From: Promethearchaeota archaeon Loki_b32
GTDB taxonomy: Archaea > Asgardarchaeota > Lokiarchaeia > Sigyniarchaeales > SOKP01
Direction: 5' to 3'
Assembly (NCBI GenBank): GCA_005223125.1
Contig: NJBH01000019.1
Location: forward strand, 1 to 64,000
DNA: 64,000 bases
Part shown: positions 1,275-28,100 of the stretch, piece after piece
Layout of the letters: each line of letters begins with the position of its first letter
How positions within the stretch are numbered: the first letter of the stretch is position 1
Translations under genes and position numbers: made by a program
Notes under the pieces: model-generated
What the model saw: the letters and a program-made list of their open reading frames with translations, nothing else
Databases searched by the model: none
What the model was told of the DNA's origin: nothing

Positions 1275-1787
1275 TTGTCGAAAAAAAGAGTTATAATCTT
1301 TATTGATCATGCAAATGTATATAAAAATCTTGAACTCGTAAGTGGACGTATTGACTGGAATAAATTTAAACAAGAATTAAAGAAAGATAATCACTTAGTT
1401 GGGACTTTGATATATATAGGAGTTCCGAATCCAATCCCTGCAAACCAGAGAAAATTCATAAAATATTTAGAGCGTGTTGAATACACACTTAGGCAAGTAG
1501 AAATACAAGAATTACCAGATGGTGAGAAACACCAAAAAGGAGTAGATATATTAATGTTTAAAGATATCGAGGGGCTAGCTAAAGACGATGCATTTGATAA
1601 AGCTATAATTGTAAGCGGAGATCGTGATTTTGTGGAAGCAATAAGAACTTTAAAAGAATATAAAAAAAGATTCGAGATTTGGAGCTTTAAGAAATCTCTT
1701 TCAAAAAAATTAAAAAAAGTGTCAGGGAGTAACAATATTCATTATATAGATTATATCTTAGATAAGATTGAAATGCGTTCTCGTTGA
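1275..1787 (+). CDS. NYN-domain (LabA/DUF88-like) putative ribonuclease
   Basis: A 170-aa single-domain protein with the layout of the NYN branch of the PIN-like nuclease fold. The first strand is IIFIDHANVY, with the first acidic residue at D11. A central GVDILMFKDIE segment follows, then IIVSGDRDF, the typical SGD-x-DF acidic motif near residues 113-119. The family hydrolyses RNA with metal ions bound by these acids. The TTG start is chosen because ggaggt lies 11 bases upstream and no ATG is available in frame. The next gene is convergent. Its substrate cannot be told from sequence; a role in RNA decay or in defence is possible. Confidence 0.8.
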   Translation: MSKKRVIIFIDHANVYKNLELVSGRIDWNKFKQELKKDNHLVGTLIYIGVPNPIPANQRKFIKYLERVEYTLRQVEIQELPDGEKHQKGVDILMFKDIEGLAKDDAFDKAIIVSGDRDFVEAIRTLKEYKKRFEIWSFKKSLSKKLKKVSGSNNIHYIDYILDKIEMRSR

Positions 1788-3933: not shown

Positions 3934-3975
3934 CAATCTCAAATTATTAAATTTCTAATTTTCCAAACTTTCGTA

Positions 3976-3984
3976 CTTTAAATA
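3976..3984 (+). promoter_or_regulatory. TATA box upstream of putative structured RNA
   Basis: ctttaaata matches an archaeal TATA element and predicts transcription from about 4007. A second TATA-like sequence (tagtataaa) at about 4002-4010 would start near 4035. No protein gene follows for about 350 bases, so the transcript would be non-coding. Confidence 0.4.
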
Positions 3985-4009
3985 CCTATAGTATATACAT
4001 ATAGTATAA

Positions 4010-4252
4010 AAACTTAATTTCTTATTCATATCTATGGAGTTGATCTCGAAAAAATCGTGAGAGAGTTAAACTCATTTGTGAAATTCTGCCCTTAATTTTT
4101 ACATGAGTATTTTATTCGTGTAATACAACCATGTAGGATCTCTTGAAACCTATTTTAAAACCTCGATTGCTTGGGCTAAGTGATTGTCTGTTCTTAAATG
4201 TCAAGAGATCCTCCTCCTTTTTATCTTGTTTTTTGGTTTTTAGTGTTTTTTG
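4010..4252 (+). ncRNA. Putative structured RNA, candidate antisense regulator of the primase operon
   Basis: A promoter-like TATA box precedes this non-coding stretch and T-rich runs (ttttt, tttttt, ttttta) from 4217 on could end it. It contains a perfect 12-bp inverted repeat, aggatctcttga at 4135-4146 and tcaagagatcct at 4201-4212, with a 54-base loop. The loop carries CGATTGCTTGGGCT (4164-4177), complementary apart from one bulged base to AGCCCAAGCATCG at 4352-4364. That target sits 4-17 bases before the start codon of the first gene of the primase operon. A loop that can pair with the leader of a replication operon resembles antisense copy-number control in plasmids. No RNA family was recognised; the role is inferred. 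Confidence 0.4.
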
Positions 4253-4305
4253 CCCTCTACACCTCATTAATAGTTACCTTTAGATCGTGATAGAAATTTG
4301 TTGTA

Positions 4306-4314
4306 GTTTAAATA
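4306..4314 (+). promoter_or_regulatory. Probable promoter of the primase operon
   Basis: gtttaaata is a good archaeal TATA element, about 60 bases before the first start codon at 4369. It predicts a start near 4333 and a leader of ~35 bases. That leader would contain the 13-base segment (4352-4364) complementary to the loop of the upstream structured RNA. Confidence 0.45.
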
Positions 4315-4368
4315 TTGTCATCTAAATAAAATGATAGTTTTAAAAAAACTAAGCCCAAGCATCGGAAA

Positions 4369-5088
4369 ATGAAATTTAAAAACATAATATATTTAGATGG
4401 TTATATTAAGATTTTTTTAGTCAGGACAGGAAGAGAAGAAATAAAAAAATTCTCTCTTGCTCTTGTTAAGCATCTCATAATCCATTATAGTATTGGATTA
4501 GTAAACAATAAGGGAACTCGGATAAAAGAATCAGTTAAGGTTGATCCTAACGATATTGAATTCACTGAAGATTATATTATCGTATCATTTATGCTTGAAG
4601 GATTACGTGATCCTTATGAATGCGAAATTACAATTCATACTCTGACTGTTTTCTTAACAGATGGTTCTCGAATAAGATTAAAAGTTGAAAAAACCACACA
4701 ATTTAGATACATTACATCAGAATTCCCAGAAATTACTCTTAAAAAAGGCTCAACTAATTCAGACATTACCAACCCTTCAAACACCAGGAAAGAAGAAGAC
4801 GAAAAAGAAGAGAACAATATTGAAAAAGATACTTCTGAACATTTTATAAGTTCCTATGAAAAATTTAAGGCAAAAATCCAGGATACAGATCTCATTGAAC
4901 TGATAAGATGTAAGACAAATACCATTGATTTCAGTTTGAAAAATTTTGGTATCTCACTCCTTTGCAAACTTCTTCTTTTGATTAAATATGTAAATGAACT
5001 CGTTGATAATGATTTTCAGAATGATCTTCAGGAGTTTTTAAAAGATAATATTCTAAAAAGTATTGAACAAGAGGAGGCAATGACATAA
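4369..5088 (+). CDS. Unknown protein, first gene of the primase operon
   Basis: A 239-aa protein in three parts. Residues 1-125 are predicted beta-rich. Residues ~126-160 are a low-complexity acidic linker (EEDEKEENN). Residues ~160-239 are helical. I recognise no family. The stop codon is separated from the start of the AEP primase gene by a single base, so the two are surely co-translated. A primase-accessory, DNA-binding or replication-initiator role is plausible from position alone. The leader before the ATG carries the segment complementary to the upstream RNA, so translation could be controlled there. Confidence 0.65.
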   Translation: MKFKNIIYLDGYIKIFLVRTGREEIKKFSLALVKHLIIHYSIGLVNNKGTRIKESVKVDPNDIEFTEDYIIVSFMLEGLRDPYECEITIHTLTVFLTDGSRIRLKVEKTTQFRYITSEFPEITLKKGSTNSDITNPSNTRKEEDEKEENNIEKDTSEHFISSYEKFKAKIQDTDLIELIRCKTNTIDFSLKNFGISLLCKLLLLIKYVNELVDNDFQNDLQEFLKDNILKSIEQEEAMT

Positions 5089-5089
5089 A

Positions 5090-7426
5090 ATGAGCTCTTA
5101 TTTTCCCAATAAACTTAGATATATCATTGGCGCAATGCAATTAGAGAATTTTGACTTTGCCTCAGTATTAAATGAGATAAAAGCATTATTTCAAGATAAA
5201 AAAAGCTCATTTTACTGGGGGAAATTAGGCAAACTAAAGGTTCGATTCGAAATTGTTACTCCAGATTTCGATATTATACACCATTTCTATGAAAAAAATG
5301 AAATAAAGAGTCATGAATTAGTAGCCATTGTGGAAAAGCTACAAGATAGTGTGAAAAATGCAATCACCATTATGGTAAATACTCTTAATTATACCACGAA
5401 TCAATATATCCCGTTTAAGTATACCGTCTCGACAACTCGTACAGAAGCTTTTGAAAAAAGAAGAGGGATTAATTCAAGACGAATTGATACCATCGAACTT
5501 ATTTTTGATACAAGCAGACTAACAATGAAAGAAGTATTTGCATTTGTACGATGGGTATCTCTTGATGAATATTCTTTTTCCAAAGAAATTACAATAGAGG
5601 TATCCTGTAAACATAAGCGAAACTCAAGATACATTACCATCATCAACATAAACTTAGAAAAAAAAGTAATAAGCCAACTAGGGCCTTTGTTATCAACAGA
5701 TGATCTTGAAGCTGTTTCGAAACTTTTATGCCATAAATACTATTTTAAGCTGCTGAAGAATCATATGTTTCCAGATGGATTTGAATCACAGGCAGAGATT
5801 ACCTTAGATATTGCAAAAGAAGAAGTTTTCCCACAGAAGAGGCGTACGGTCTCTATCGATGGCTCAAAGATGAAATTTCACCAATTACTTACTGAATCTA
5901 CACCTATAGAAACATATCAAAAGATAATTAATGAGAATAAAATCGCTGGTTTATACTGTTCCGTTAAGTCTGCTAATGACAATCTTCTATACCTGTTAAT
6001 AGATATTGACGTTCCCTTAATTTTATATTATATGTTTCCGGCTCAGAAAGTATGGGAGCTCACATTAAATCTAATAAAAGCTATTTCAAAAATTGCTTCT
6101 GCTTTCGGCCTTCCTTCCTTTAAAATTTCCTTCTCTGGAGCTAAAGGAGTTCATCTCTTAATAGGGTTAGAAAATCCTGAAGTTATAACTGATATTGAAA
6201 AATATGTGAATATTCCCGAAATCCAAAATATTTCTCCCCTACCTGGCATCTCAACACTGAAGAAAGAGAAGATTAGCACATTGAATGATAAATTCAAATT
6301 TGCTAAATCTCTTCTCCAGTCATTACTTTTATACACAGTCTATAAAGGAGATATTGAAATCCCTTCTGAAATTCGTTATGTGTTAAAAATCTCACACCCA
6401 TATCAGCTTTTTAGGTTATCTCCAGATTCAAAGAATAGACTTGCGATACTTCTTGACTGTTCTTCAATGAGCCGAGGAGTATTTCGATTATGTAGTCCTC
6501 ACCCTATTTCAAAATTAGTATCGATCCCCATCTCAAACATGACCACAGGTGAGATCTGTGAGAAATATCTTGAGTTTGAGAAGGTAAAAAAAGATGCTGA
6601 TATTGAATGTGTTATTGAAAGATTTGAAAATGATGATATGAAGCTTTTCTTACAAAAACCACATACAATAACAAGAAAGCATATACAAAATCTATTAACC
6701 CCTGATAAATTACTTCCTGCATTCGCTACATTACTCAGATTTGGTACTATTTATTCTATTATGCGAACACCTCAGAGCTTTTCTTTCTGGTATCGTTTTT
6801 ATGAGCAGAAATTCTTTTACCGGTATGTTGAGAGCTTAGTAGAACATTATGAAAATAGCGATTTTACCAACTTGAAATCTTATATTACTGATATGGCCAT
6901 CCGGTTAGATATTGATAACAAAGACCGAATCATTAACCTTATAGAATTATATTTATTTAAGAAAAAAATCAGTTTCCCTTTGTTCAAATATAGACTCTCC
7001 ATTCTTTACTACATTGAATTTTTCTTTAGCTTAAAATCTGAGATATTTTTTATTGATAATGAAGAAAATTTAATTGAACTATTCAAAGATGAGATGACCT
7101 TTAATAACTTTCTTTCTCAAACACAAGAAATATTCAATATTGCTACAGATACCCTATTTCGGCACATTATCCTTGATCATAAGACTCATCTTTCGAAATC
7201 TCAAATAGATTATATTAACAATTTCTACAGAAGAGCAGAATCTCTATTAGATTTAGCCCGATTTTATCTTAATGACTTACAAGTTGATACAGACTCATCG
7301 TGCAGGGAAGAACAATTAATAAAAACCATTTATTTTGTAAGCAGGTTGTATGTTATATCGATTGAATTTATCCGTGAATTCTATATGCTAATGGGAAATC
7401 CAAAGGTTATCAAAATATGGAGGTAA
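5090..7426 (+). CDS. Large archaeo-eukaryotic primase (AEP/PrimPol-like) protein
   Basis: The middle of this 778-aa protein carries the AEP catalytic signature. LLIDIDV holds the metal ligands D305 and D307. SGAKGVH (residues 349-355) is the s-G-x-x-G-x-H nucleotide-binding motif. Later LLDCSSMSRGVFRLCSPHP corresponds to the third-acid and arginine/lysine motif seen in PriS. Canonical archaeal PriS has about 350 residues. Here ~280 extra residues precede the core and ~240 helical residues follow it, as in large PrimPol-type proteins of plasmids and viruses. It would synthesise primers or copy DNA for a mobile replicon. It is the second gene of the operon, one base after the first gene and overlapping the next by 10 bases. 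Confidence 0.8.
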   Translation: MSSYFPNKLRYIIGAMQLENFDFASVLNEIKALFQDKKSSFYWGKLGKLKVRFEIVTPDFDIIHHFYEKNEIKSHELVAIVEKLQDSVKNAITIMVNTLNYTTNQYIPFKYTVSTTRTEAFEKRRGINSRRIDTIELIFDTSRLTMKEVFAFVRWVSLDEYSFSKEITIEVSCKHKRNSRYITIININLEKKVISQLGPLLSTDDLEAVSKLLCHKYYFKLLKNHMFPDGFESQAEITLDIAKEEVFPQKRRTVSIDGSKMKFHQLLTESTPIETYQKIINENKIAGLYCSVKSANDNLLYLLIDIDVPLILYYMFPAQKVWELTLNLIKAISKIASAFGLPSFKISFSGAKGVHLLIGLENPEVITDIEKYVNIPEIQNISPLPGISTLKKEKISTLNDKFKFAKSLLQSLLLYTVYKGDIEIPSEIRYVLKISHPYQLFRLSPDSKNRLAILLDCSSMSRGVFRLCSPHPISKLVSIPISNMTTGEICEKYLEFEKVKKDADIECVIERFENDDMKLFLQKPHTITRKHIQNLLTPDKLLPAFATLLRFGTIYSIMRTPQSFSFWYRFYEQKFFYRYVESLVEHYENSDFTNLKSYITDMAIRLDIDNKDRIINLIELYLFKKKISFPLFKYRLSILYYIEFFFSLKSEIFFIDNEENLIELFKDEMTFNNFLSQTQEIFNIATDTLFRHIILDHKTHLSKSQIDYINNFYRRAESLLDLARFYLNDLQVDTDSSCREEQLIKTIYFVSRLYVISIEFIREFYMLMGNPKVIKIWR

Positions 7427-8085
7427 ATGAGTTGCAAAAATACCTATTAGCAAATCGTATCCAAAGTTCTTTTAACTCGGTTTCTTTAATTAAGAAGCTA
7501 GAGAACTTGGAATTACCTTCTAATGTAAAGTGTATCAAAAAAGAAGTAGCAGAAAAAGATCATTTTAAAATAGTTCCTGAAAATTATAAGATAGGAATCA
7601 TTGACTTTGAAGGCTCCCCTGTATTTTTGTGCGGAATTTTGATCCACAGTTCAATACTTGTCTATTATATAGAAAAATTAGTTGATAAAATTGATTTATA
7701 CCTTACGATCTTCAAAATACTTAAGGTAACATATGACCTTATTTTCTTTTCTTTTAGTGATCATGAGCGCATTGAACTTTTGAACTTATATCGATATTTA
7801 CGAGTGCAAGAAATCGATGTATCCGAATTTGAATTTATCATTACATTTCCAATAGTAAATCTCCAAAAGAATAACTCGAAATTTGAATCATTACAAGAAG
7901 CGATTTATTCATTAAACTCCAAAGCTACAGCTTTCACAGGTGATGCGTTGTTCAGAAATAACAAGTTAGTTAATACATTATTTACCTACCGGAAATTTGA
8001 TGAAGTTATTTCCCACAATATAAACTGCCTACTAAACGGTGCTTTATTATTTTTAAAACGATGGTATAAAAATTATAAATTGTAA
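7417..8085 (+). CDS. Primase-operon protein, possibly RNase H-fold exonuclease-like
   Basis: This 222-aa protein begins inside the end of the primase gene. The segment GIIDFEGSPVFLCGIL has the D-x-E and glycine pattern of the first strand in DEDD/RNase_H_2-type 3'-5' exonucleases. Later SFSDHERIELL and a C-terminal helix NINCLLNGALLFLKRW sit where such folds place their second and last motifs. The remaining catalytic acids are not convincing, so it may be an inactive relative or an unrelated protein. A proofreading or primer-processing partner would fit the neighbour. Confidence 0.5.
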   Translation: MEVNELQKYLLANRIQSSFNSVSLIKKLENLELPSNVKCIKKEVAEKDHFKIVPENYKIGIIDFEGSPVFLCGILIHSSILVYYIEKLVDKIDLYLTIFKILKVTYDLIFFSFSDHERIELLNLYRYLRVQEIDVSEFEFIITFPIVNLQKNNSKFESLQEAIYSLNSKATAFTGDALFRNNKLVNTLFTYRKFDEVISHNINCLLNGALLFLKRWYKNYKL

Positions 8086-8342: not shown

Positions 8343-8664
8343 AATACATCTTATATTCGGTGTTAAGTCCTATATTGGTTGGATAATTTATGAAGATTTA
8401 TATTTGTTGCTTTTTTTATTATATCTTGTTTTATTTATAAACTTTTATGAAATAGAAGGAGTGAGAACTTCGCTATCTAATAACAGAGTAAAACACATAG
8501 AAAATCTTTCCCGACAAAATATTATGAGAAATACACAGAAAAATTCAAATCATAGTGCAGAAAGTGAAATAAATAACATATTCAACGCACTTCATTTGTT
8601 CACTTTCGAGAGCGAAAAAAAGATTTTATTATTTAGTAATAGGTTGGGGTATATAAATGGCTGA
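8335..8664 (+). CDS. Small membrane protein
   Basis: The ATG at 8335 overlaps the stop of the ribbon-helix-helix gene and is preferred over an in-frame TTG at 8275 that would lie inside that gene. The 109-aa product has one strong hydrophobic segment near residues 20-40 (YLLLFLLYLVLFINFY) and a polar C-terminal half rich in asparagine and serine. Its end overlaps the start of the ParB-like gene by eight bases, so it belongs to the same operon. It has no recognisable motif and might anchor or modulate the partition-like protein. Confidence 0.45.
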   Translation: MNKIHLIFGVKSYIGWIIYEDLYLLLFLLYLVLFINFYEIEGVRTSLSNNRVKHIENLSRQNIMRNTQKNSNHSAESEINNIFNALHLFTFESEKKILLFSNRLGYING

Positions 8665-9850
8665 AATTACAACAGAAAACGACCAATCGAGAGGTTCTTT
8701 TTATTCGGATAAACTGTATGACTTTCATGAATACTGTATAAAATTTCCGCGAATGAAATCAGATCGAATCATGGAAATAAGTGAAAGTATTGTAAAGTTT
8801 GGACAACAAGATGATATTATTTTATTAGACGGTTTAATCCTTGATGGTCGTCATCTCTGGTGGGCTTGTAAAGCCGCAGGAAAAACTCCAAGATTTAGAA
8901 ATTTTGATAGCACTTTACATCCATGGCATTATGTAAAAATTAAAAATCTTTACAGACGTGATTTAACTACTGCGCAAAGAGCAACCTTAGCGTTGGAGGA
9001 TCTTAAAATTGAGAAGGAAATTGCAAAGGAAAGACAAATGCAGACACGTTTCAAGAATAAAACCGAGTTACAAAAAAACAATGAAAAAGACACGGTGGGT
9101 CACCCAAGGTCACCCACCGTAACAAACATTAAAAAGGGTAGAGCTGTGGATATCGTAGCCAAAGAATGGAGGATTGCCCCTAAATCACTAAGAAAAGCTG
9201 ATGAGATTAGCAAAATCGCCGACCAAAATCCTTTCATCAAAAAATATTGGGAATGGGCTCAGAATGACGGTATACCATTAGAAGAAATCTATCGTACTAT
9301 AAGGAAGGCATTAGATATTCATAATTCTAAAAGATGGAAATCGTTTCAAGATCTTAACAATGCTGTTAAGATATATGAGGCAAGTAAAAGCGATCCTGAT
9401 ATAAAAGAACAGTTAGAAAAAGTTGAAAAAGGCGAGATTTCATTGGATCTTGCTAATCAAAATGTAAACAAAATAGAATCTTTGAATAAATCTATTAGAC
9501 AACATAGTGTAGATAATTTTGTTAAAGCTGGCAAAAAATTTGAGGTTGAAAAATTAAAAAATAATAAAAAAGGAGAAGAACATCAAAATCTAGATGTAAA
9601 GCTCAGCAAAAATATAAAAGTATTAAATACCTCAGGACAAGATTCAACAGAACTAAAATACATATGCAAAGGATGTCCCAAAGCCACCGTGATGGCAATT
9701 GGACATATTTGTGAGAAATGTGGGTATTTTAATTTTGTTTCTAGAGTTATATGTGATGATGATATGACAGATGGCTCTCATAAGTTAAGAGATCCTAATT
9801 TAGAAATATGTGAGAATTCTCCTGATTATGATCTAATTGTTAAAAGTTAA
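8657..9850 (+). CDS. ParB-like nuclease/partition-domain protein with C-terminal zinc ribbon
   Basis: In this 397-aa protein, residues ~25-110 match the ParB/sulfiredoxin fold. SIVKFGQQDDIILLDGLILDGRHLWWACKAAGK holds the ILDGRH motif, and NLYRRDLTTAQRATLAL is the arginine box followed by the Q-R-A helix seen in phage and plasmid ParB-like proteins. A helix-turn-helix-like region follows (~170-235). The C-terminus has a C-x2-C...C-x2-C zinc ribbon (CKGC and CEKC). The family binds DNA in partition or transcription control. No ParA-type ATPase is visible nearby. A GC-rich palindrome lies inside its own reading frame at 9092-9120. Confidence 0.75.
   Translation: MAEITTENDQSRGSFYSDKLYDFHEYCIKFPRMKSDRIMEISESIVKFGQQDDIILLDGLILDGRHLWWACKAAGKTPRFRNFDSTLHPWHYVKIKNLYRRDLTTAQRATLALEDLKIEKEIAKERQMQTRFKNKTELQKNNEKDTVGHPRSPTVTNIKKGRAVDIVAKEWRIAPKSLRKADEISKIADQNPFIKKYWEWAQNDGIPLEEIYRTIRKALDIHNSKRWKSFQDLNNAVKIYEASKSDPDIKEQLEKVEKGEISLDLANQNVNKIESLNKSIRQHSVDNFVKAGKKFEVEKLKNNKKGEEHQNLDVKLSKNIKVLNTSGQDSTELKYICKGCPKATVMAIGHICEKCGYFNFVSRVICDDDMTDGSHKLRDPNLEICENSPDYDLIVKS
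9092..9120. repeat. GC-rich palindrome inside the ParB-like gene, candidate binding site
   Basis: ACGGTGGGT (9092-9100) and ACCCACCGT (9112-9120) are perfect 9-bp inverted arms around an 11-base centre. The centre contributes further pairing and a tandem ggtcaccca repeat. It is markedly GC-rich against a strongly AT-rich gene, and it encodes an unremarkable, linker-like stretch (TVGHPRSPTV). This is the form expected of a parS-like site, though an attachment site or operator is equally possible. Confidence 0.45.
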
Positions 9851-13180: not shown

Positions 13181-16100
13181 TTGCAAAAATTAAACCATGA
13201 AAGTGTGGAAGAATTTAACCATACGAAAAAAAGGAAAAAGAAGTTAAATCACACGCAAAAAATTGCGCTTGTATTATTATGTATATTATCTATCGCATTC
13301 ATTCAACAGTGCAGGGCAAATGGTTTTTCTGAACCTAGAATTACTGATTTTACTGCATCTCCCTCTACTGTAGATGTGGGCGAACCTGTAAATCTTACAT
13401 GGACCATTATAGGCTTTTTTGATATTGCAGTGATATCGTATGGAGACGGGAACCAAACGCAAATGACGATGGTTGAAGAAAATAAAACGTATACTATTTT
13501 ACACGAGTATCAATCTGAAGGGAAGTATAATGTGTCTATATATGTGGCAAATACTATCACAACAGACGAAGATTGGGATGCTCAATTTATTACGATTCAG
13601 AACGACCCTCCTGTTTTTGACATTTCAATAGATCCTTCTCAAGCTGATGAGGATGAATTTGTGAATGTGTCTGTTACTAACCTGCAAGAATCGGATCACG
13701 ATAAAGAACCAGGATTGTTAACTTATGTATTTGATTTCGCGGATGGAAATCAAACTACTTCTAATTCAAGTTCCATTCTCCATAAATGGGAAAATGGAGG
13801 CACCTATCCGATCACCGTAACGGTAATCGATGATCAGAATGCCCTTAACCAAAAAACACAAGATATTGTGATTGAAAATAAGGTACCAGAACCAGATTTT
13901 ACCATCGGTTGTGAAATTCCGTCGACCTATGGATTTTATTCTGATTTAATCGGCGCCTTTCCGTTCGGATGGACGTCCATAGATAACCATTATGATGGAA
14001 CATATAGTTTTGAAACCGATGAAGATGGAAGTGATCCTGCCGGATGGACTGATATAAGTGTAGGTACTGGCACTGCTAATGTTATATCTAATATAAGTGG
14101 GCATAATAAAATTGTTGAAATGTATCATGGTGTAGGTAGTGGTGATGATGCAGGATTTGAAAATAGTTTTACAATTCAAACTTCTGGAACTGTTGAATTT
14201 TGGATGAGAACAACAGATGCAATGAAATTTTCTATGGTTTGGATGTATGAAGGTATTTTAACACAAAAAATATGGTTTCGTATTGCTGGTAATCATTTTC
14301 AATGGTATGATGGTACCACTTTTCAGACTCTTAATGCTACCTCTGTCGCAAACACATGGCATCATATACGTTTTGATTTTGAATGTGCAGATGGATTATA
14401 TAAAGGACTTTCAGCAGATACAGCCAGAATATATATAGATGGTGCGGATCAAGGAGTATATAGTTTTACTGCTACTACTAATTTAGGTAAATTAAGCTTT
14501 AATCTTGATATTAGTAATGATTATTATTCCTATGTTGATGCAATCGGCTATTCTTGGGATGAAAACTATAATATCGGCGATAATTCGTATGCGCATGAAT
14601 CTTTCGACGCATTCAGAGTAGCTGAAGGCGCTGATCATCATCAGAAGATATTAGAAGCAAAATGGACGGAATATCAGGATGTTGAGATATACAACACGTT
14701 CGAACCACAACTGAATGGAACCGTCGAGTTTTGGTTCATGACCAATGATATTACATTATACTCGATTCCCGCGTTTTCCTTTTATGATGATCAAGGACTT
14801 GAAAATTTTGAGATCTATATTGACGACGGTAAGTGGTATTATAATAATTCTGCTATGTATCAAATACCAAATGTTAATGATCCAAAAAATGACACATGGC
14901 ACCATGTAAGAATCGATTTTCTTGCCGAGGGCCATTATTTAGATTTAAACCCATCAACCTTTAAGGTGACCATAGATGGTATAGAGTCTGGACTACTTAT
15001 TATGAATTATGATGAGGGCCATTATACAGAGAGCATGCATATGAAAGTTGATAAAGAAGTAGGATATGATGGAGCAAAATCGTATATTGATGCGATTGGA
15101 TATTCATGGGATCCCCATTATAAAGTCGGTGATAACCATAAAATATTTATCAATGAATTTTATGCGACTTTTGACTTTAGTGAAGAAGTCGTCGGTACTG
15201 AACCTAGCGTTGATGATTGGTATATTCCTCCACTTCCATCTGGTAAATATGGATCATTTTCTATTGTAGACGCAGGAGATATCGGTGTGTCAGATGGTGC
15301 TGAAAGTAATGGAAGTGTAGATACTTCCGATCCGAATAGCGAAATAGTAGAAATCATCGACAATAGCACGATATCATCCCTTATCATGGAGCATAATTAT
15401 ACGGACCAATCTTACGGAAGCGTAGAATTCTGGGTGCGAAGTAATAACACAAACGAAAAAGTGTGGGTGTTTTGCTTAATGCAAAACGACATCTTGGGGT
15501 TAGCTTTATTGATGGATGATAATGAATGGCAATATACAATTAATGACGTTGATTATGAGATTATTGATGGCAACATCGACTCACCCGAAAACGATACGTG
15601 GTACCATGTCAGACTTGATTTTCGAGGTACTGTGGCAGATCCGTACTTCTCGTTACAAGAAGGCTATTTTACTGTAGCTATTAACACGATTCTTTCTTCA
15701 CAATTTCAAATGACTTCATTAACATCAATAAATAGAACGAGAGTCACTACTGGAGGAAGTGATACTGGAACTGCCTATATGGATGCAATCGGCTATTCGT
15801 GGGATCCGTATTATCAAATAGGAGATAACAGATTTCCGATGGTGCACTATCCAGAGAAGTCTTTGATATGGTTCTCTGCATCTCAGACAACCGATACTTC
15901 GAACGATGAAGGATCTCTTAACTATTACTGGGATTTCGGGGACGGATCAAGTGATTTTGGTAAATATGTTGCTCATGAGTATCCCACTTCTGGTATGTAC
16001 CCAGTGGAATTAACCGTAATGGATGATAACGGTGCAAAAGCATCTAAAACCAGAATTGTATTAATCAGCAACAAATATCCAGATATTAATTTTTCTTCAT

Positions 16101-19100
16101 TTCAGGATGAAATTACGACATTTGAAGGTACTACTATCACATTTGACACAATCATCGATGACGAAAATCCAGATGTGGCTCGAATGGAATATTATTGGCA
16201 TCTAAACGGCTCTGAATTTGATCCGTACAATGTAACTCAGTATATTCAAGGAGGATGGATTAATTCCTATACGTTTGTTGATGATCATGACGGAACATTG
16301 TATGCGATGGCCCGAGATCCAGAGGGAGCATTTGATTTTGATGCACTGAATGTTACTGTGGAAAATGTGGATCCCTCGGTCAGCATCCGCACGATGGATA
16401 TGGTGGCAAATGTCACATTTGAGGTGGAACGAAGTACAGGTCCACCGTGGTATGATAATAATTTTACTTTTGTTGTACAAAATACCGACAAGTTTGATCT
16501 TGAGGTACCGTACTTTTTTACAGAATTAAATTTTACAGGATCAACAGAAACGACCGTAAATCATATACAAGAAAATATGATGTTCGATCTGTTAAAGGAC
16601 TGGAACATATATGCGAATACAACGTCCCAAGTATCTGGCAGCGTGAAGTATCAGCTTACGTTTGAGTTTAAAGATGGGAAGCAAGAAGTTATCAGTAGTG
16701 AGTGGATTTCTTCGGGGTATGCCTACTGGGAAAAGTCGTCGGATGAACTGTGGTATGATGAGACGAACTTTACCGTCGGACATCCTGTAGAAGTGGGTGT
16801 GTCAATATGGGATCCGTCTACTGACGATGTTTATCTTGATCTGAATTACATCGTGGATATGGTGGTGGAAATACAGTGTACAGATACGCTACCGATTTCA
16901 AAATCATTTAACATCAGTGATACATACTTTTATGATGTGTATATCTATGAATCCAACGGAAAAAAATACGTAAATATCACTGCCTACACGCAGCTAGCTT
17001 CTTCGGACGAAATTAATAACGAGGGATTTCCGTTAGATGCGCATACCACATATACTCTCGAACCGTTGATTGATCTTACCGAATTACTTGTAAATCATCC
17101 AGATGGTCCGTTGTTGAGTGGATTTTCTGTTGTGGAGTGCATATCAGCATTAAACGGTTTAAAAACATATGCAGAAGATGATGACGGCGGAAGTTCTCCT
17201 GTTGTTTCTATAAAATTTGATACTCAGGATGATATAGACATTAAAGCGTTATGTCCTGATATTGACATGATCAATAACGACGGAGGGATGATGACGCAAA
17301 ATATTTCATTTTATTTAGATTATTATTATCGGTCCTACTTCCGAGATGGATCTGATGTTACATTTGAGCAAGTATCACCCTATCAGGATTCTGATCAAGA
17401 AACATCATTCAATTCGTTTGGAGATCCGATTTCTTTTGCAGGAAGTGGCGGTGATAGCGGGTATGTGACAACTAATCAATCTACAGATTCTGGAGTTGAC
17501 ATGGGAAGCGCATATAATGAATTGAACAGTATCGATTGCAGTGGAACTGATGGCGGCAGTGGTTATAGGAGTAGAGAGCAAGATACGATAAGTGGAGAAG
17601 GTGATCCTCAACATCCTGTTAACCTAGGATCCTATGTTACCTCTTCTCAGCAAGTGTATACGGATAATACTGATCGCTCTAAAACTTCTTCAAAGGATAC
17701 AACTGAAAATCACTATCCAGGTAATCCAGGAGAATCTTTTAGAGGACAACCGCTAGGATCAAATCCAGATAATTGGGTTACTGTTGAGGAAGATACTGGT
17801 AGTCTTATAGAGATATATCCTGGACCTGTAGGTGGGCATACAGACTGGGCATGTTTTTTTTACGATGGCGGGGGGTCTCTTTATATGTATAGAAATTGGG
17901 GTAGTGATTATGAAGAGACACAAGTACAATTTTGGTTATATTATCATGGTGCAGATGTTTACGTACGATTTGAAAACAATCCCATTTGGTCTTGCGGCAT
18001 TCAATTTCAACAAAACGGGGTATATCGTCGTTATAAATCCGGACTTGCGTGGTATTGGGGCCTAATTTATTCTGGTTGTACTGATGACAATTGGTACAAT
18101 GTTGGCTTTGAGCTACGTACTAGTGATACATATTGCGTGACTATCGGTGATACATATGGTAATCAAATATGGAGTGGCGTTTTTGATATACAATCAGGTT
18201 ACGCAACAGCGTGGGATCGAATAGAAATTTGGGCAAAAGATACAGCTGGGTATATTTTTATTGACGGGTATGGGGAGACTCATGATTCTGGCTATTCTTA
18301 CGGACAGAACGTATTTCCATATCAGAAGTGCACTCTGTCTAGTTTTTCGGTACCTATGCAGGGGATGCATGTAGATAATTATGCCCGTCGCACTGGTACT
18401 TATTATTTAGAATATAGAGTGAAAGTAAATTATGCAGGAGCTGGCTGTGAATCTCCTGACATTTATTTGTATATTGACGGTCAATATATTAGCGCTGGTA
18501 CTATAGCTGATCCTTCCGACAATGTTTGGTACACAAAACAAATTGCGATTCAAAATACTCAATTTTCCGGCGATTATGATGTAGATTTATATTTTAAAGC
18601 ACTAACCGAAGATATAAATGCAAAAACTCAAGGATATACTCTATACGTAGACTGGGTAAAAACAAAGTGGCAGTACCAATATTATAACGGCCCTGATGCC
18701 TATTATCGCGAACCAGGTCAGAATGTAGCTGCTGGAACTCTTGATCGAAGTGTAAGTGTTTGCAATAATTTTCAACGAGACCACGGTTCATTTACATATG
18801 ATATACAATTTAGTCTTTCACAGACTAAACAATATTATGTACAACTTTACAAGTTCATTGACGCGTCTCCAGGTTGGAGAACAATATATTCAGGTACATC
18901 TTCTGGTTCAAAGTCATGGACAAATGTACCTCTTAGCTCCGATTATGTAGAAGACGACGAAGATCCACATGTTAAGCTAAGAATCTATACAACAGGCAGC
19001 GGGAATCCTTTCAATCTATTGTTGACAGAATTTCAAATTCATTACCAATATTCCTATACCTATTATTATCGACATACAGTCGACTTGAATAACATGAACG

Positions 19101-22100
19101 AGTTCCGCTATAGAGCGTTGGATATGGCTCGAGGAATTGATATGGATTTTGATTACTATTTTCCTCTTGAAGATAGGGATGGTGATATAAAACACAAACA
19201 ACAAAATACAACAGCGCAATGGCAACAGGTCGGTCTGTATGATAACGTCGGAGACGATTTATTTGATTATACATTCTTGAATAAAGATTTTATATTGTAT
19301 GATGGTAGTTTTTATGTCTATCATGAACAGGAAATTGTTGACCATGATCCTGATGGACATGCTACTGAATGCGAGCTAGACTCTATGTCGCATTATTATG
19401 AGTGGGATTACTCGTACTGCGATACATTTAGTCTCGAACTGAGCGATATGAACGACTTTAGATATGACCACTTTACCTTATGCGATATTAATTATGAGGT
19501 GAAAACCCACAACAGCGAAGGCCTAAATATAAGAGTGTATAACCACGCAACTTATGAATGGGATGCATTAGACTCTTTTACCACGAACGGTGCTGACCCA
19601 GATCAACCGTTGGTTGGTACAGATGGTTTTGTGAATTTTGTGAGTGATGACTACATTTTATATGAAGCATCATCTGGAAAGTATTTTGTGAACGTATCCT
19701 TTACTGGCTTTGCAAATCCATCTGAAACAATATTTGATATAGTAACTCTGGAAACAGAGTGGGATTATTCCTATACATGGGATGATCAATTTGAGATATC
19801 ACTTACCAACATGAACGATTTCCGATATGATAATTTTGAGCAGTGTACGCTATCGTATACGATTAATACAAGTTCGGGAGAGCCAGTAGACAAGTACTTA
19901 TGGGATTACACTATCAACGATTGGGTATATCAGGAAACAGTAAATGCAGGACCGAGTTATTCAGATTCGATTACGCTAACAGGTACCAGCAATAACAAGT
20001 ATATCAACTCAAGCACCTATGAGATGAAGGTGTGGTTTGAATTAGCAGAGTTTAATCCGCCGACACAGTATGCAAATTCTGAGTTTGATCTGGAGAGCAT
20101 GTCAGTAAGTTGGGAGTATAATTTCACGTATTATGATACCTATCAATCACAATTGGCTGAGATGACGCAATTTAGATATGATACTTTTACAGAATGTATT
20201 GTCAGTTATAATATCGATCTGATTCGGGACGGTAAGTCTACGGATGTGTATCTGTACAACTTTACCAAATCTGATTGGGATTTCTTCAAAACAACATCAC
20301 CGCCACAGGGAGGTGCTGGTATTGAAGATTACTTCACGTTTTACAGCACCGATTATATCGACAGCGGAACGTATAACGTGCGCATTAAGTTTACGGGATT
20401 TACAGAAACAGAATTTGCACTCAACAGCATCGGGTACACATTTGAGTGGGAATACGATGTTCAGGATAAGTTCACCACGAACTATGATATGGATGACCAT
20501 ATGTACAATACCTATGAGTCATGTACCATCACGTTTTCAATTACAACAAGCGAATCTCAAAGTAATGTGCAGGTAAAAATGTATAATTACAGTTCCTCTC
20601 AGTTTGTTGCTGTGGGATCTCCATTTTCGGCGACAGCAGATGTTGAGTATGAGGGATCAGTACAATTTACAAGCGATGAGTTCATTCACTCTACCGAGTA
20701 TACCACAAGAGTATATTTCGGTGGAATTCAAGATTCCTATCTTACTCTTAACTGGATGAAAACCAATTACTCGTGGTCACATTTTTACTGTTATTGTGAT
20801 TTTGGTCATGATAATCAAGGAATGGAAGGTATCTCCTATGCAGACATGACCGCGATATATAGAAACGTGTATAACGCATCAGAAGTATTTGATTATGCGG
20901 GAACGTACCTTATTACATGGACGGTAAGCGATGGCGTGTATGAAACAACACTGGGCCAAATGATAGAAATCACGTATCCGTTACCATCGGTGGCGATCGG
21001 GGATCTGCCTGACTATATTATTGAGGACCAGCTCATTTCGATTGAAACAAATATTGATCTTGCAGAAGGATTTTCTTATCTTCCACCTAAGCAGGTGTTT
21101 GCCCATCTTACTGATTTTACTTATCCGCAACAACAAGAATTTGATATTACTGCAGGAACGTGGAACACATTCCCAGAGGATAGTCTTGAATTTAACGATG
21201 ATGAGTATGCAATAATCAGCGCTGATCCAGTATATGATTATGTATCACCGACATCTGGAGATTTTAATGTGATTTCAGGGGATTTGACCTACGGTGATCT
21301 GGACGATATTGATGGTATTAAATCAACTATAACACCTGATGCGGGAGTGGCGGGAGTTCCTGCACTAGAAGGATGGGATTATGTAAGAAATATTACATTA
21401 AATCCTTCAACCCCAGAAAATAATTATCAGGTAAAAGTGCAATTGAGTACTTCTAACTTTGATTATTCTCGGGTAAAATCAGATGGTGCCGATTTGCGAT
21501 TCTATACTACCGATGAAACGTTATTGAATTACTGGATAGAATCGTGGAATACAACGGGAGATTCCCTTATATGGGTAAAGACTCCAGATTCAGGAACTTC
21601 GGTTATTCATATGTATTACGGGAATTCAGTAGCGACAGCGATGAGCAACGGTACGGCTACTTTTTCATTTTTTGATGATTTTGAGGGAACTAGTTTAGAT
21701 ACAAATGTATGGAATGAACACAAAATAACCAGAAGCGGTACGTTCAGTGTTACTGTTGAAGATAGTATGGTAAAACTACTCATGAATTTTGGCGGTACTG
21801 AGATGCGAGGACCATGGACAACTGTAGGATATAGTGACTTTTATACCACAGGCGGTGGATACGGTACATTTTGTCCGAACGGTATTAATGCCCTTACCCT
21901 ACATACATATACCCATGAAGGCTCTGTTGCTCAAGTGACTGCCGATGTTAGAGGTTCTGAGTGGACATGGCTTGTAGATGACATTTATTATTTAAGTGAC
22001 TCTTTAGTGAAATTTTATGAAAATGAAACATTGATTTCCACGCACAATGAGTCAATTCCTGATGCGGAATCAATACCAATTAAATTTATGTGCAGAGGAT

Positions 22101-25100
22101 GGGACTATCCAAGCGGACGCCATTATATGAATGCTATTCGTACAAATAATAATCTCAATGAAATGGGTACTGCTCTTAGAGTACTTTCTAGAATGGAATG
22201 GGATCTCGGCTCTGATAATAATGAGATAAAGATTTGGGTTGACTGGGTATTTATCCACGAAATCAATGGAACAGAACCAGTTGCAAGTATAGGATCCGAA
22301 TTAGTAGCGGAATATTCTGTTAATGCAGAAGTTGAATGGTCGGTATCTGATCCAGATTTACTATCGATTGAGGCATTAAGATTCAATCACGTGGGCCCTG
22401 CAAACATGGATTTTTATATATGGAATTATACACTCGGTGATTGGGTTGATATCACTTCAGAAACAAGTCCATATGAACTTACAACTGATTTGTATAACAG
22501 TAGTAAGACCGTAAAGGTTCTGTATAATGCAACTTCAAGCAGTAGTTTTGATATTGATATAGACCAATTACGAATTGATTACACGAAAAGCTCGTTTTAT
22601 AAAGTCGATACAAGTGTGGAGTGGTCAATTTCAGATCCAGAGTTATATTCAATGGATGCGATACATTTTGATCACACGGCACCGATAAGCATCGATTTTT
22701 ACATATGGAATTATACATTAGGTGATTGGCTTGATATCACCTCAGAAGCCGATCTATATAGGCTTGCAGCCGGTCTCTATAACATAAGCACTAATATGGT
22801 AAAGGTACGATATATATCGGGAAACAGCGTGAGTCCATTTGATCTGCAAATAGATCAATTGCGCATTGATTACACAAAAGAGATCGCGCGGATAAGCCGT
22901 AAAGATATTTATCAGTATTACTGGGATTTCGGAGACGGATACTTCAGCGTAGATCGGAACCCAGAGCATCAATACGGGTATGACGGCAATTATACAGCAA
23001 CGCTGTTTGTGCGGGATCTGTACGGCAATTGTTATGATGATACAGTTATGGTTGAAGTGGAAGAGAAGCCGCCAGAAATTATCGGTCCGCTCGCCTTCTA
23101 TGCATTAGAAGGGCAGTCAATTGTATTAGATATTGAGGTAACAGATTCTGTACTTGATTTACGAGACCTGACGTATACGTGGTATGATGAAAATCAGCAG
23201 GAACTCACAAGTCTTGCCAACAACCGAAAGCTGACTATCAGTCTTCCAGGTGGTGGGTACATATACTCCTTATTGGTAGAGGACCCTGATAATAATCAGC
23301 ATCAGTGTAATATTTCTATTATCGTTGAAGATATGTCACCGAGCGTGTACATTCCCAATTACATGTATCACGGCGATAGCACTTCAGGTACTCTTACGTT
23401 AACTGCCTACGGATACGATTCCACATATGATATAAATAATTTGGAGTTTTCGTGGAAGATTTCATTTAACGGTACAGACGATACGAGGGGACCATACTCA
23501 AATATAAATAGATCATCAATTCAGTTTGACGCAACTAAAACGGCGCTCTATCAAGGTGAAGTAACGGTAAGAGATCCAGATAATAATAAGTCAACTACAG
23601 CCTCTTTTGCGATCTTTTCTGTTATTGATTCAAATGGAAACGGATTCAGTGACGAATTTGAAGAAAAACTTGCTGAAAACGGAGAAAGTATTTATGATTT
23701 CTTTGATTCTGATAACGACGGTTTGAGTGATTTATATGAAATTACAAATAATATTACTGATTGGACGGATCCAGATACTGATAATGATGGACTATATGAT
23801 GGCGTCGATAGATCTAGTGGGTTTGGGGAATTTTTAGCTGGAACAAATCCTGTAAACTGGGATACTGATGATGATTTATTGTCTGATAGTATCGAAGTAA
23901 TAGGGTGGGAAATGGAAACAGAAATTTTCGGCACAATCTATGTGACATCAAATCCATTAAAGGCAGATACGGATGGAGATGGGTGGGATGATAAGCGAGA
24001 GTATGATGAGCGAACAGATCCACGAAGTCCAGATACAGATGGAGATTTGCTTAACGATCCTGATGATCCGCATCCGTTGAAATGGGACGGAGATGAAGAT
24101 GGGTTATCAGATAAAGTTGAAGTGGATATAGGCACTGATGCAAATAATCCTGATACAGATTCTGACGGGTTAACTGACGGTCAAGAGGTCCTAGGATGGG
24201 AATTTATTACGGATCCTCTGACAGCAGATTCTGATAGAGATTTTGTATTTGATAACGCAGAAGTGAAATCATACGAGTATGAACTAGCAGATCGTCTTGA
24301 TTTAGATCAACCAGTAAAGTTGAAGTTTCAGCAATCATTTACAAAGGCGGCATCTGGACAAATAGAATTTACTATTGCATTTGGAGAAGCAAATAATTCT
24401 GTACCAATTGATGGACAACAAACAACGTACGGTATTTTAGAGGTACCTGATATAGAAGTGTTGATAACCAAAAGTGGTATGGAATTATTTAGAGGCACAA
24501 CTAATGGGACCAGATACTTTTCGCAAGTTGTTGATATTAAGGAAATCATGAAATCAAATTCTGCAAATTATTATGGTAATTACTACATTAGAGTAAATGA
24601 TACAGACGCTGGATGCATTTTAGAACAATTCAAGGTATCAGCAGTACGATATCTCGATCCAAACAATAACGATCTTGACGGAGACGGTATTATGGACGGT
24701 GTTGAAATGGAAAAAATAGTTAGAGGGACTGATATAATTGACGTTGATGACTCATACGATTATAACAATATTACCATTAATGAAATTTATCAAGAGCATG
24801 AAAAGTATAACTTCCAGATGGAAGTAGGATATGTTGACATTACAAATACCATTGATCAAACTGTATCAGTACCGATTTCATTTAATTACTTATATTATCA
24901 ACCAGTTGTCGTTGCGTATGTGATGACAAGAAATGATGACGAAAGTGTCGAAGTACGAGTTGCTAATATCACTTCTGAAGGATGTGACATTTTTATGGAA
25001 GAACCAGACGACGGAAGTCACGCAACAGAAACGTTTGGATATATAGTGGTCGAGGAAGGTGAATGGGAACTTATAGATGGCACGGTATTAAAAGCAGGAA

Positions 25101-28100
25101 TAGTGTCCACGGATCAAGCTCATCAGGGAGGATTGTCATATAATAATTGGGAACAAGTAAATTTTGGCAGACCGTTTTACGCAGATCCCATAGTATTGCA
25201 TTCTCTTAATACCTATAACAACGAAGACTTTAAAACATCAATTGTATCGGAGATAACTACATCATCATTTAATGTTACTCAGGAATCAGCTGAAACTGGC
25301 ACGTCTACCGATGAAGAAACAATAGGATGGATCGCAATTGAGTCGGGAAAAACAGGTACAATAAATAATGTGAAGTACGAAACACTTCGGGGAAACGACG
25401 GTGATAGTGATGGTGTTTCACCAGGCGAAAATGGTCATGTGTTTAGTTTCCAGCAAAGTTTTACGAACATTCCAGATGTAGTGGTTGTAAAACAACTTAG
25501 TGTAAATGAAAACGACGGTTCATGGGCACGTTCTGATGGTATTCTTACAGCTGCATCCCATAGGACCTGTGCAGAAGAGGACCAAGTGGGTGATCCTGAA
25601 AGAAATCACACGGACGAGTATTTTGGATTGGTCGCATTTGAAGATGATTTTTCTTATGGATATAATTATGTACCCCCTGAGGAATCTGAAGGATCTAGTT
25701 ATGTAAAGTCGGTTGAGCATGTTGAGTTAACATTAACTGGTGCTTCTGGTTCTACACAACTATCTAAAAACCAAGACATCACGAAGTGCGTGCCTTTTGT
25801 TACAATGAAGCAAAGCGTGGGTGATGATTGGGATGATATCATGTGTGATGTGTACTTTACAGACAGTCCTGCAACGGTTGTGGCAGAAAGAGCTACAGCA
25901 GGAGCTTCTATAACTCTTAGTATCTTTATCGTAGAGTTTGACGACACGAATGTTGAGGTGCAAAGCGGCACCTTTTCGGTAACGGGAACGTATGCAGAAA
26001 AAGCTATAGATCAAATAGATACTTCCAAGGCGGTTCCGATGGCATATTACAAGGTAGCTGGAGGGGATGATGATTGGGATTCTTCGATGATTACCACAGA
26101 TTTTGTAGACACCTCAACAGTGAGAATGGAACGACATCAAAGTTCTGGCACTATGTCAGGACATTATTTTGTGTTTGAGTCACAGAATTCAGAGTTTTCC
26201 GTGCAAAAAGCAGAATTGTCATTGACATCAAGTGATGGTTATGATACAGCAACAATTAGTTGGGTAAACATGTCAAAATCATTTATCATCTCTTCATATG
26301 AATGCGACTGTGCAACTGATGATCCCGAAGATGCAGCCGTCGATGTGTGGTTAAGTTCAGAAACAGAAGTTCGGGCAAAACGGCATCCTGAATCATCCTA
26401 TTCTAATGGAGCGCCGACCATCAATGTATTTGTTGTCACTTTTGGTGGAGATGATGAAAGTGTGCAACGCGGAGACTTCATATGGGCAGATGCCGACAGC
26501 TTTAAAGAAACTGATATCATGGATATTAATTTAGATTTTTCAATCGTGAAATCAGGGCAGATGTACGGTATCATGCAATGCGATGGTACAGGAAGTGCTG
26601 ATGTAAAACCTTCGTTTGTCGAACTCAAATTTATTGATGATAATACGATACGGTTAGAACGATACACGAACAGCGAAGATGGAATAGGACACTGGGAAGT
26701 CGTAGAATTTTTCGGTGTGCCCGAGGTAGAAGAACAAGAAATAGAACTCGAACCTGAGCCATTTGATACAGAGTTTTTCTATCTGGAAATCCCCGATAGG
26801 GGTATTGTGTATGATGCGGATCTCACGCTCACAGTAGAATCAGATGACACTCTGTTAGGATACGGAACTGTGAATATTACCCTCTTTAAAGAAGATATTA
26901 ATTGCAATATTGAAGATGTAGTGTTAATTGATTATGATACTGAGTTTAATGAAACAGATGTCTACTTTAATCAATTTGTAGATCTTACCAATCTAGTAAA
27001 TTCAAAAACTATTCATCAGTTCTACGGAACTTATCGACTGGAGATAGTGATTTTTGATTCATCCTACGATGATGTATTCAATGTAACACAATTTATTATC
27101 GAAACTGATACCTATATAGATGCATCAGCGTCTGATACCGATGCATGGATTACAGATCCCGCAAGGTGGGATACAGACGGTGATACGATATCAGATTACA
27201 GTGAGATTTATGGATGGACCCGCGGTTCTGATACATTTTATACGAATCCGCTAAGTAAAGATACAGACGGAGACGGCGCAAAAGATATAATCGATCGGCA
27301 TCCAACTGAAAACGTGATGATCAAGATAAGTCCGCTATCCGCAACCCATCGCAGTCAAGCCTACTGGGAAGAAAGTCCTAAATTAGAAATTGCCATATCA
27401 TATGAATTAAACGGAGATGATGATGACCGCCATAAAATTTTCACCCCTGCGATACAGGCAACTGAAGATTTATGGTCAAAAGTGATACTATTCATCAGAT
27501 ACAGCCATCATAGAAGAACAAATTTTGCTGAAAATGACATACACTATTATGTCGATGTTGATGATAATCCCAACGTTCAGCCAGAAAATATGGACTTCGG
27601 ATTTTCATTATGGCACATGGATGTTGTCGACTTTTTCAGCATACCGCTATGGTACACATGGCTTGCAGGAGAGTCTGTTGTATATTCTATAGGTGATATC
27701 GGTCATTCTACCACATTTGACATATATGATGCTGGTATTTGGGGTCAGGATAATGAGTTGCACGTAAAGGTAGAAACCATTTCGGTAGAAAAGGCAAATA
27801 TAATTGCGATTTACGATACAAATGAAAGTGCAGTGTTTAACGGTCATTATCAAGAAAAAGAAAAGATGAATATCATAGTTCTAAATATTAATGACGATGT
27901 ATCTGTAAGTGGAACACCCTTCGAATACGGTCCAAATGCAATTGTAATTCCCGCTCGATTATTCGCAGAGACGAAATTAAACGGATATATCGAAAATGAA
28001 AATATTGATCAGACTCCGTTATATAGTGATGTTGAAGGAGAATTTGAATTCATTTCAATAGGAAGAAACGGTACTACAGAAGAAGGAAGTGATGAAATAG

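Follow-up and report, generated by a model that had tools for sequence, protein, structure and literature searches.

A putative same-strand antisense RNA whose hairpin loop covaries with the leader of a primase operon in Lokiarchaeial elements

The stretch of DNA analysed here, which we call the window, covers the initial 64 kb of a contig of 70.7 kb in a Lokiarchaeial genome. At 4369-8085 it carries three tightly packed genes, preceded by a non-coding stretch of about 430 bases:

4369..5088, + strand: p1, first gene of the operon (239 aa)
5090..7426, + strand: archaeo-eukaryotic primase gene (778 aa), starting 2 nt past the p1 stop
7417..8085, + strand: p3, third gene of the operon (222 aa), overlapping the primase gene

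By its modelled fold and its motifs the 778-aa product of the regulated gene is an archaeo-eukaryotic primase (AEP), which upholds the original prediction that this is a primase operon. Pfam gave only a sub-threshold match to DNA_primase_S; Foldseek searches with an AlphaFold model returned PriS, Prim-PolC and CAPP (CRISPR-associated Prim-Pol) as top matches, at probabilities of 0.91-1.0 and a best E value of about 2e-3. Along with the AEP fold, the protein has the DxD, SGxxxH-like and third acidic motifs, and the catalytic residues D305, D307, S349, G350, H355 and D456 are invariant in six relatives. Three of the relatives found by the primase search retain p1 and a similar leader: L022 (in genome G002; 57% primase identity to the window's protein), L023 (G007; 49%) and L024 (G005; 46%). 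The p3 protein is also kept in operon relatives, and its DFE motif (IIDFEG) is invariant. A low-confidence model of p1 shows a beta-rich N-terminus and a helical C-terminus, and yielded no structural match from which to assign a family or fold. Given the 2-nt spacing of the two genes, translation of the primase is likely to be coupled to that of p1.

The contigs bearing the operon, that of the window and likewise those of L023 and L024, carry ordinary chromosomal genes; neighbours named by eye include metK in L023 and L7Ae and S28e in L024. Given this chromosomal setting, any control acting on the operon is no less likely to serve the silencing of an integrated element than the control of plasmid copy number. 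Viral contigs, phages and plasmids, when searched, yielded no relative of the primase.

Other genes around the operon were noted in passing. A gene for an NYN-domain protein (window 1275-1787) precedes the operon at each of the four loci, about 0.5 to 5 kb away. On the 3' side is a gene for a ParB-like protein (window 8657-9850; L022:12237-13604), with a ParB_N match above cut-off in L022 only, hinting at partition or a plasmid-like past. Ribbon-helix-helix proteins downstream of the operon were suggested by eye and set aside when Pfam did not confirm them. Window positions 13181-31201 form one open frame of 6006 aa, resembling a giant repetitive surface protein, a relative of which is also found downstream of the primase operon in G005 (L024:15281-18430). 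C-terminal fragments of the primase gene, fused to other sequence, occur at L029 (G002:C28:2539-3669) and L028 (G017:C48:7140-7829). The latter is close to the L7Ae/S28e operon that also borders the intact G005 element, suggesting either that an element decayed at a site common to both or that recombination took place inside the primase gene.

The non-coding stretch upstream of p1 contains an ordered set of features:

3949..3984, + strand: promoter 1, of the putative small RNA, with upstream block AAATTTCTAATTTTCCAAACTTTCGTA and TATA box TTTAAATA at 3977-3984
3987..4007, + strand: direct repeat TATAGTAT-n5-TATAGTAT, a possible operator, overlapping the expected RNA start
4096..4130, + strand: 5' hairpin of the putative RNA (stem 4099-4108/4114-4123)
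4135..4212, + strand: main hairpin, 78 nt, with a perfect 12-bp outer stem (4135-4146/4201-4212)
4163..4181, + strand: guide, spanning the apical stem-loop and complementary to the operon leader
4191..4198, + strand: loop motif TTCTTAAA, 3' of the guide
4213..4252, + strand: pyrimidine/T-rich tail (67% T, 80% pyrimidine), where an archaeal terminator and the 3' end of the RNA may lie
4307..4314, + strand: TATA box TTTAAATA of promoter 2, serving the operon
4348..4365, + strand: target leader site ACTAAGCCCAAGCATCGG, ending 3 nt short of the ATG

The stem, both TATA boxes, the loop sequence CGATTGCTTGGGCT (4164-4177) and the complementary leader AGCCCAAGCATCG (4352-4364) preceding the ATG at 4369 all lie where the original prediction had placed them, and the T-rich sequence that it noted after the hairpin is present at 4213-4252. 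The full match is longer than first recognised: 4163-4181 and 4348-4365 form 17 base pairs, interrupted by a single bulged U and a single mismatch. The target ACTAAGCCCAAGCATCGG occurs once in the window, even when 3 mismatches are allowed. In the predicted fold of the free RNA part of the guide is paired, and its apex GGC (4174-4176) is unpaired. Just 3' of the guide the motif TTCTTRA is conserved in all five RNAs aligned. In the 5' hairpin two of the ten pairs are changed on both sides among three copies, a number of sequences too small for a formal test, and 58 of 500 shuffles equalled this result. A scan of the tail for bacterial-type terminators found none; bacterial terminator and promoter models are uninformative for an archaeon.

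The pairing was also compared with chance. None of 1500 dinucleotide shuffles of the window's upstream region gave a duplex as strong as the real one (Gumbel p about 7e-4). Among ORF starts from the same genomes, however, 7 of 201 reach -26.8 kcal/mol, four of them being the operon starts themselves, so the window match taken alone is only suggestive.

The relatives give the match its weight. The four loci with a paired module, the window's and L022, L023 and L024, all belong to one genus and come from incomplete metagenome assemblies. In each the order is the same: promoter 1, hairpin, pyrimidine/T-rich tail, promoter 2, leader site, with TATA/BRE-like motifs retained at both promoters. The geometry is conserved too. 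Taking the loci in the order window, L022, L023, L024, the hairpin measures 78, 78, 71 and 76 nt; guide and target are 187, 198, 202 and 180 nt apart; the gap between target and ATG is 3, 3, 4 and 13 nt; and TATA box 2 stands 63, 63, 62 and 78 nt from the ATG. The tail of the window, like that of L022, is T-rich; that of L023 is moderately T-rich and that of L024 weakly. In every predicted fold the guide extends across an apical stem-loop, in which a few GC-rich bases are left unpaired at the apex (GGC, CGGCA, UAGCC and GGCA), as expected for a nucleation site.

The pairing sequence itself is different in each locus, and the match of loop to leader is preserved in all four. Duplex energies of hairpins with their own leaders are -28.7, -28.0, -34.6 and -26.8 kcal/mol, whereas swapped combinations reach only -10.1 to -18.5 kcal/mol; of the 24 possible assignments of hairpins to leaders the true one is the best (-118.1 vs -92.4). 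The longest perfect Watson-Crick runs are 10, 8, 14 and 13, against at most 12 at the other ORF starts tested; the run in L022 is the shortest because G-U pairs break it, and all 18 of its pairs form as RNA, including two G-U pairs and a bulge. In a by-hand comparison of the three ATG-anchored loci, most pairing columns have changed on both strands. Loop and leader thus covary across the four loci at the level of sequence. The original prediction had held that related loci should show loop and leader changing together, and compensating changes are indeed found in all four loci that keep p1 and the leader, in support of the loop-to-leader switch that it proposed. Shuffle p values for L022, L023 and L024 are about 0.011, 8e-4 and 4e-3, and the Fisher combined p, calculated by hand, is about 7e-8. 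Chance is removed as an explanation because three differing relatives repeat the pattern and the partner of the leader is always the hairpin loop. The more distant primase relatives L025, L026, L027 and L061 showed no pairing above shuffles, and the module is absent from them; an 11-bp AT-rich match in L026 was rejected as module pairing since it lies outside the hairpin.

The reading that we favour, and consider probable, is that an antisense RNA encoded upstream on the same strand blocks translation of the replication operon of an integrated element. The stretch 3949-4252 would encode a small RNA, roughly 220-250 nt long, that has a promoter of its own and a U-rich 3' terminus. Acting in trans, the GC-rich apex (GGC) of its main hairpin would touch the operon leader first; pairing would then spread to about 17-18 base pairs, covering the leader to 3 nt before the p1 start. 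Ribosome entry at p1 would be blocked, and primase output would fall through the tight coupling of the genes. Since the element itself encodes the RNA, the level of RNA would track element copy number. As a consequence the replication genes of an integrated element would be silent, the copy number of an excised one would be limited, and incoming elements with the same leader would be excluded.

Argonaute was considered as a needed partner of such an RNA and rejected: PIWI searches gave no match in two module-carrying genomes, and matches in only 2 of the 5 genomes checked. The PIWI-domain (Argonaute-like) matches lie at G007:C64:24599-25495 (L125) and G000:C21:135164-135685 (L126), that in G007 alone being above the curated cut-off.

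The RNA unit is also found by itself. A hairpin-based pattern search combined with BLAST revealed solo copies at L056:1110-1340 (G016:C62), L114 (G014:C3:73097-73201) and L110 (G008:C48:2490-2571), which are 90-93% alike, occupy unrelated places in the chromosomes and lack the primase operon. They keep the TATA box, the repeat ATACTATATAGATATACTATAC at the expected start, a hairpin with apex region UUUUGGCGAAUU and the tail, and they share an identical guide core, GAATTTTGGCGAATT. Repeats resembling those of TATAGTAT occur in the relatives. Promoter 1 is conserved in L022, and in the form CAAACTTTCGnACTTTAAATA it is present in one solo copy and in other loci of the genus when up to 2 mismatches are allowed. 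A decayed copy of the RNA gene is present in G002. Because the solo copies exist without the operon at unrelated sites, the unit behaves as a gene of its own.

These copies bear on the main competitor of a separate RNA. At every locus guide and target lie on the same strand just 180-202 nt apart, as they would in one long leader transcript made by read-through from promoter 1, in which the loop would pair with the leader in cis, as in an attenuator or riboswitch, or from which an RNA would be processed as is P4 CI RNA. The latter arises by processing of a longer transcript that is not translated, and the sites with which it pairs lie on both sides of it, upstream and downstream (PMC4825925). 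We judge such an arrangement unlikely here: a second TATA box stands at a near-fixed distance from the ATG in all four loci, a T-rich tail separates the hairpin from promoter 2, and the solo copies have no matching leader in cis. Together the second promoter, the tail and the solo copies favour a separate RNA, as far as sequence features can indicate.

Alternatively, the complementary stretches could be inverted DNA sites for a regulator or replication initiator encoded by the element and coevolving with them. Coevolving sites could vary between loci yet match within one, and operator-like repeats are present at promoter 1; but each locus has exactly two occurrences, one in the hairpin loop and one directly before the start codon, and in L022 G-U positions and a bulge break the DNA repeat while leaving the RNA duplex intact. 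A search for the L022 inverted repeat at the DNA level, allowing 3 mismatches, did not find it. We regard DNA sites as very unlikely; placement in a hairpin loop and in the last bases before the ATG fits RNA pairing better than a protein-binding repeat. It is highly improbable, too, that the RNA or hairpin forms part of a replication origin, as primer RNA or single-strand hairpin, with the match aiding origin folding. The module does adjoin a primase operon, and the origin of Sulfolobus pRN1 has an essential stem-loop, though 3' of the replication gene (PMC3869888); against this, in three loci the match stops 3-4 nt short of the ATG, as translational control predicts, and solo copies persist without a replication gene. 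As for a chance match within AT-rich intergenic DNA, a duplex this strong at a single locus is not very rare, 3 ORF starts outside the operon reaching -26.8 kcal/mol, but its occurrence at four loci with differing sequences, equal geometry and the loop invariably as partner makes chance scarcely credible.

We compared the putative antisense RNA, hereafter the Loki RNA, with known systems. Rfam gave nothing above gathering score in the window region (best chance matches E >= 1.5) and no family, C4 antisense RNA and plasmid copy-control RNAs included, in six related loci. ColE1 RNAI and R1 CopA are stable antisense hairpins that limit replication through loop-first recognition, which the Loki RNA would share with them; both differ from it in being counter-transcripts, and RNAI acts on a primer RNA, not on an mRNA leader. 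Phage P1/P7 C4 is an antisense RNA whose gene lies upstream of the target and on the same strand, and its loops pair close to where the downstream gene begins, as the Loki RNA is predicted to do; C4 controls an antirepressor gene and shares a promoter with its target, and the Loki RNA has no Rfam match. In phage P4 the alpha protein is a primase-helicase. P4 CI RNA lies on the same strand upstream of the replication operon that it silences, and pairs with sites in the leader region (PMC4825925). It resembles the Loki RNA in position, strand and target, the leader of a replication operon, and differs in being processed from a longer transcript and in acting by premature transcription termination; the separate operon promoter and the target placed before the ATG point to translation control for the Loki RNA, a comparison made at the level of layout. 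This P4 CI/C4-type layout (upstream, same strand, loop complementary to a downstream leader) is found in all four loci, in which the conserved second TATA box argues for separate promoters where the phage type has a shared one.

In likely mode of action the nearest counterpart is the antisense RNAII of pMV158, a plasmid that also has CopG; RNAII is a small hairpin RNA that blocks translation of a replication gene by pairing just upstream of its start signals (PMC4485353). Both would pair immediately before the start, but RNAII is a fully complementary counter-transcript from the opposite strand, whereas the Loki RNA is encoded on the same strand beside its target and has complementarity in the loop only, with a bulge and G-U pairs. 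This refines the original idea of a switch: the predicted RNA is encoded upstream on the strand of its target, as a separate stretch 180-202 nt away, whereas the RNAs of ColE1, R1 and pMV158 are counter-transcripts. The trans-encoded sRNAs of archaea, known for instance from Methanosarcina and Haloferax, have been reviewed as a class (PMC3432209). They are intergenic, with their own promoter and partial target complementarity, as is predicted for the Loki RNA; complementarity near the start codon is found here, the promoter and 3' tail being recognised from sequence. The described ones are mainly host RNAs, in contrast to the Loki guide and target, which neighbour each other in a replication module and covary between elements. 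By analogy, then, the Loki RNA is most like P4 CI RNA in layout and pMV158 RNAII in likely action; it would belong to neither family, because it is no counter-transcript, has no Rfam match and comes with a conserved, separate operon promoter.

In the open-access literature we found no earlier case of replication in archaea or in Asgard elements being under antisense control. The module looks like an RNA switch such as bacterial plasmids and phages are known to have, of which we found no Asgard example described; it suggests that the same-strand antisense design of phages P4 and P1 has an archaeal counterpart, which most likely arose by convergence. The covariation of loop and leader defines a precise and testable RNA interaction, between a short guide and a short target, in a lineage with almost no genetics, and the module gives a means of tracking down related elements and the incompatibility groups to which they belong.

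A broader interpretation, which we offer as decidedly tentative, is that these RNAs form a dispersed Lokiarchaeial family with exchangeable guides, which mobile elements use for self-immunity and copy control, the solo copies being captured, host-protecting RNAs. Were this true, guides would be renewed between elements much as incompatibility type is, and Asgard archaea would possess an RNA-based exclusion of incoming elements with matching leaders. The leader that the solo RNAs would match is AATTCGCCAAAATTC before a start codon. Pattern searches of the genomes with solo copies for a target of these RNAs gave matches at about chance level, none of them convincing. A search for a second RNA copy in the window's own genome found only the promoter block, near the edge of contig C6. 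This block, ACAAATTTCTAATTTnGCAAACTTTCGkACTTTAAATA, recurs without the RNA elsewhere in the genus, often close to contig ends: G000:C6:1165-1200, G007:C21:603, G009:C1:1299465, G002:C7:6060 and G016:C62:7573.
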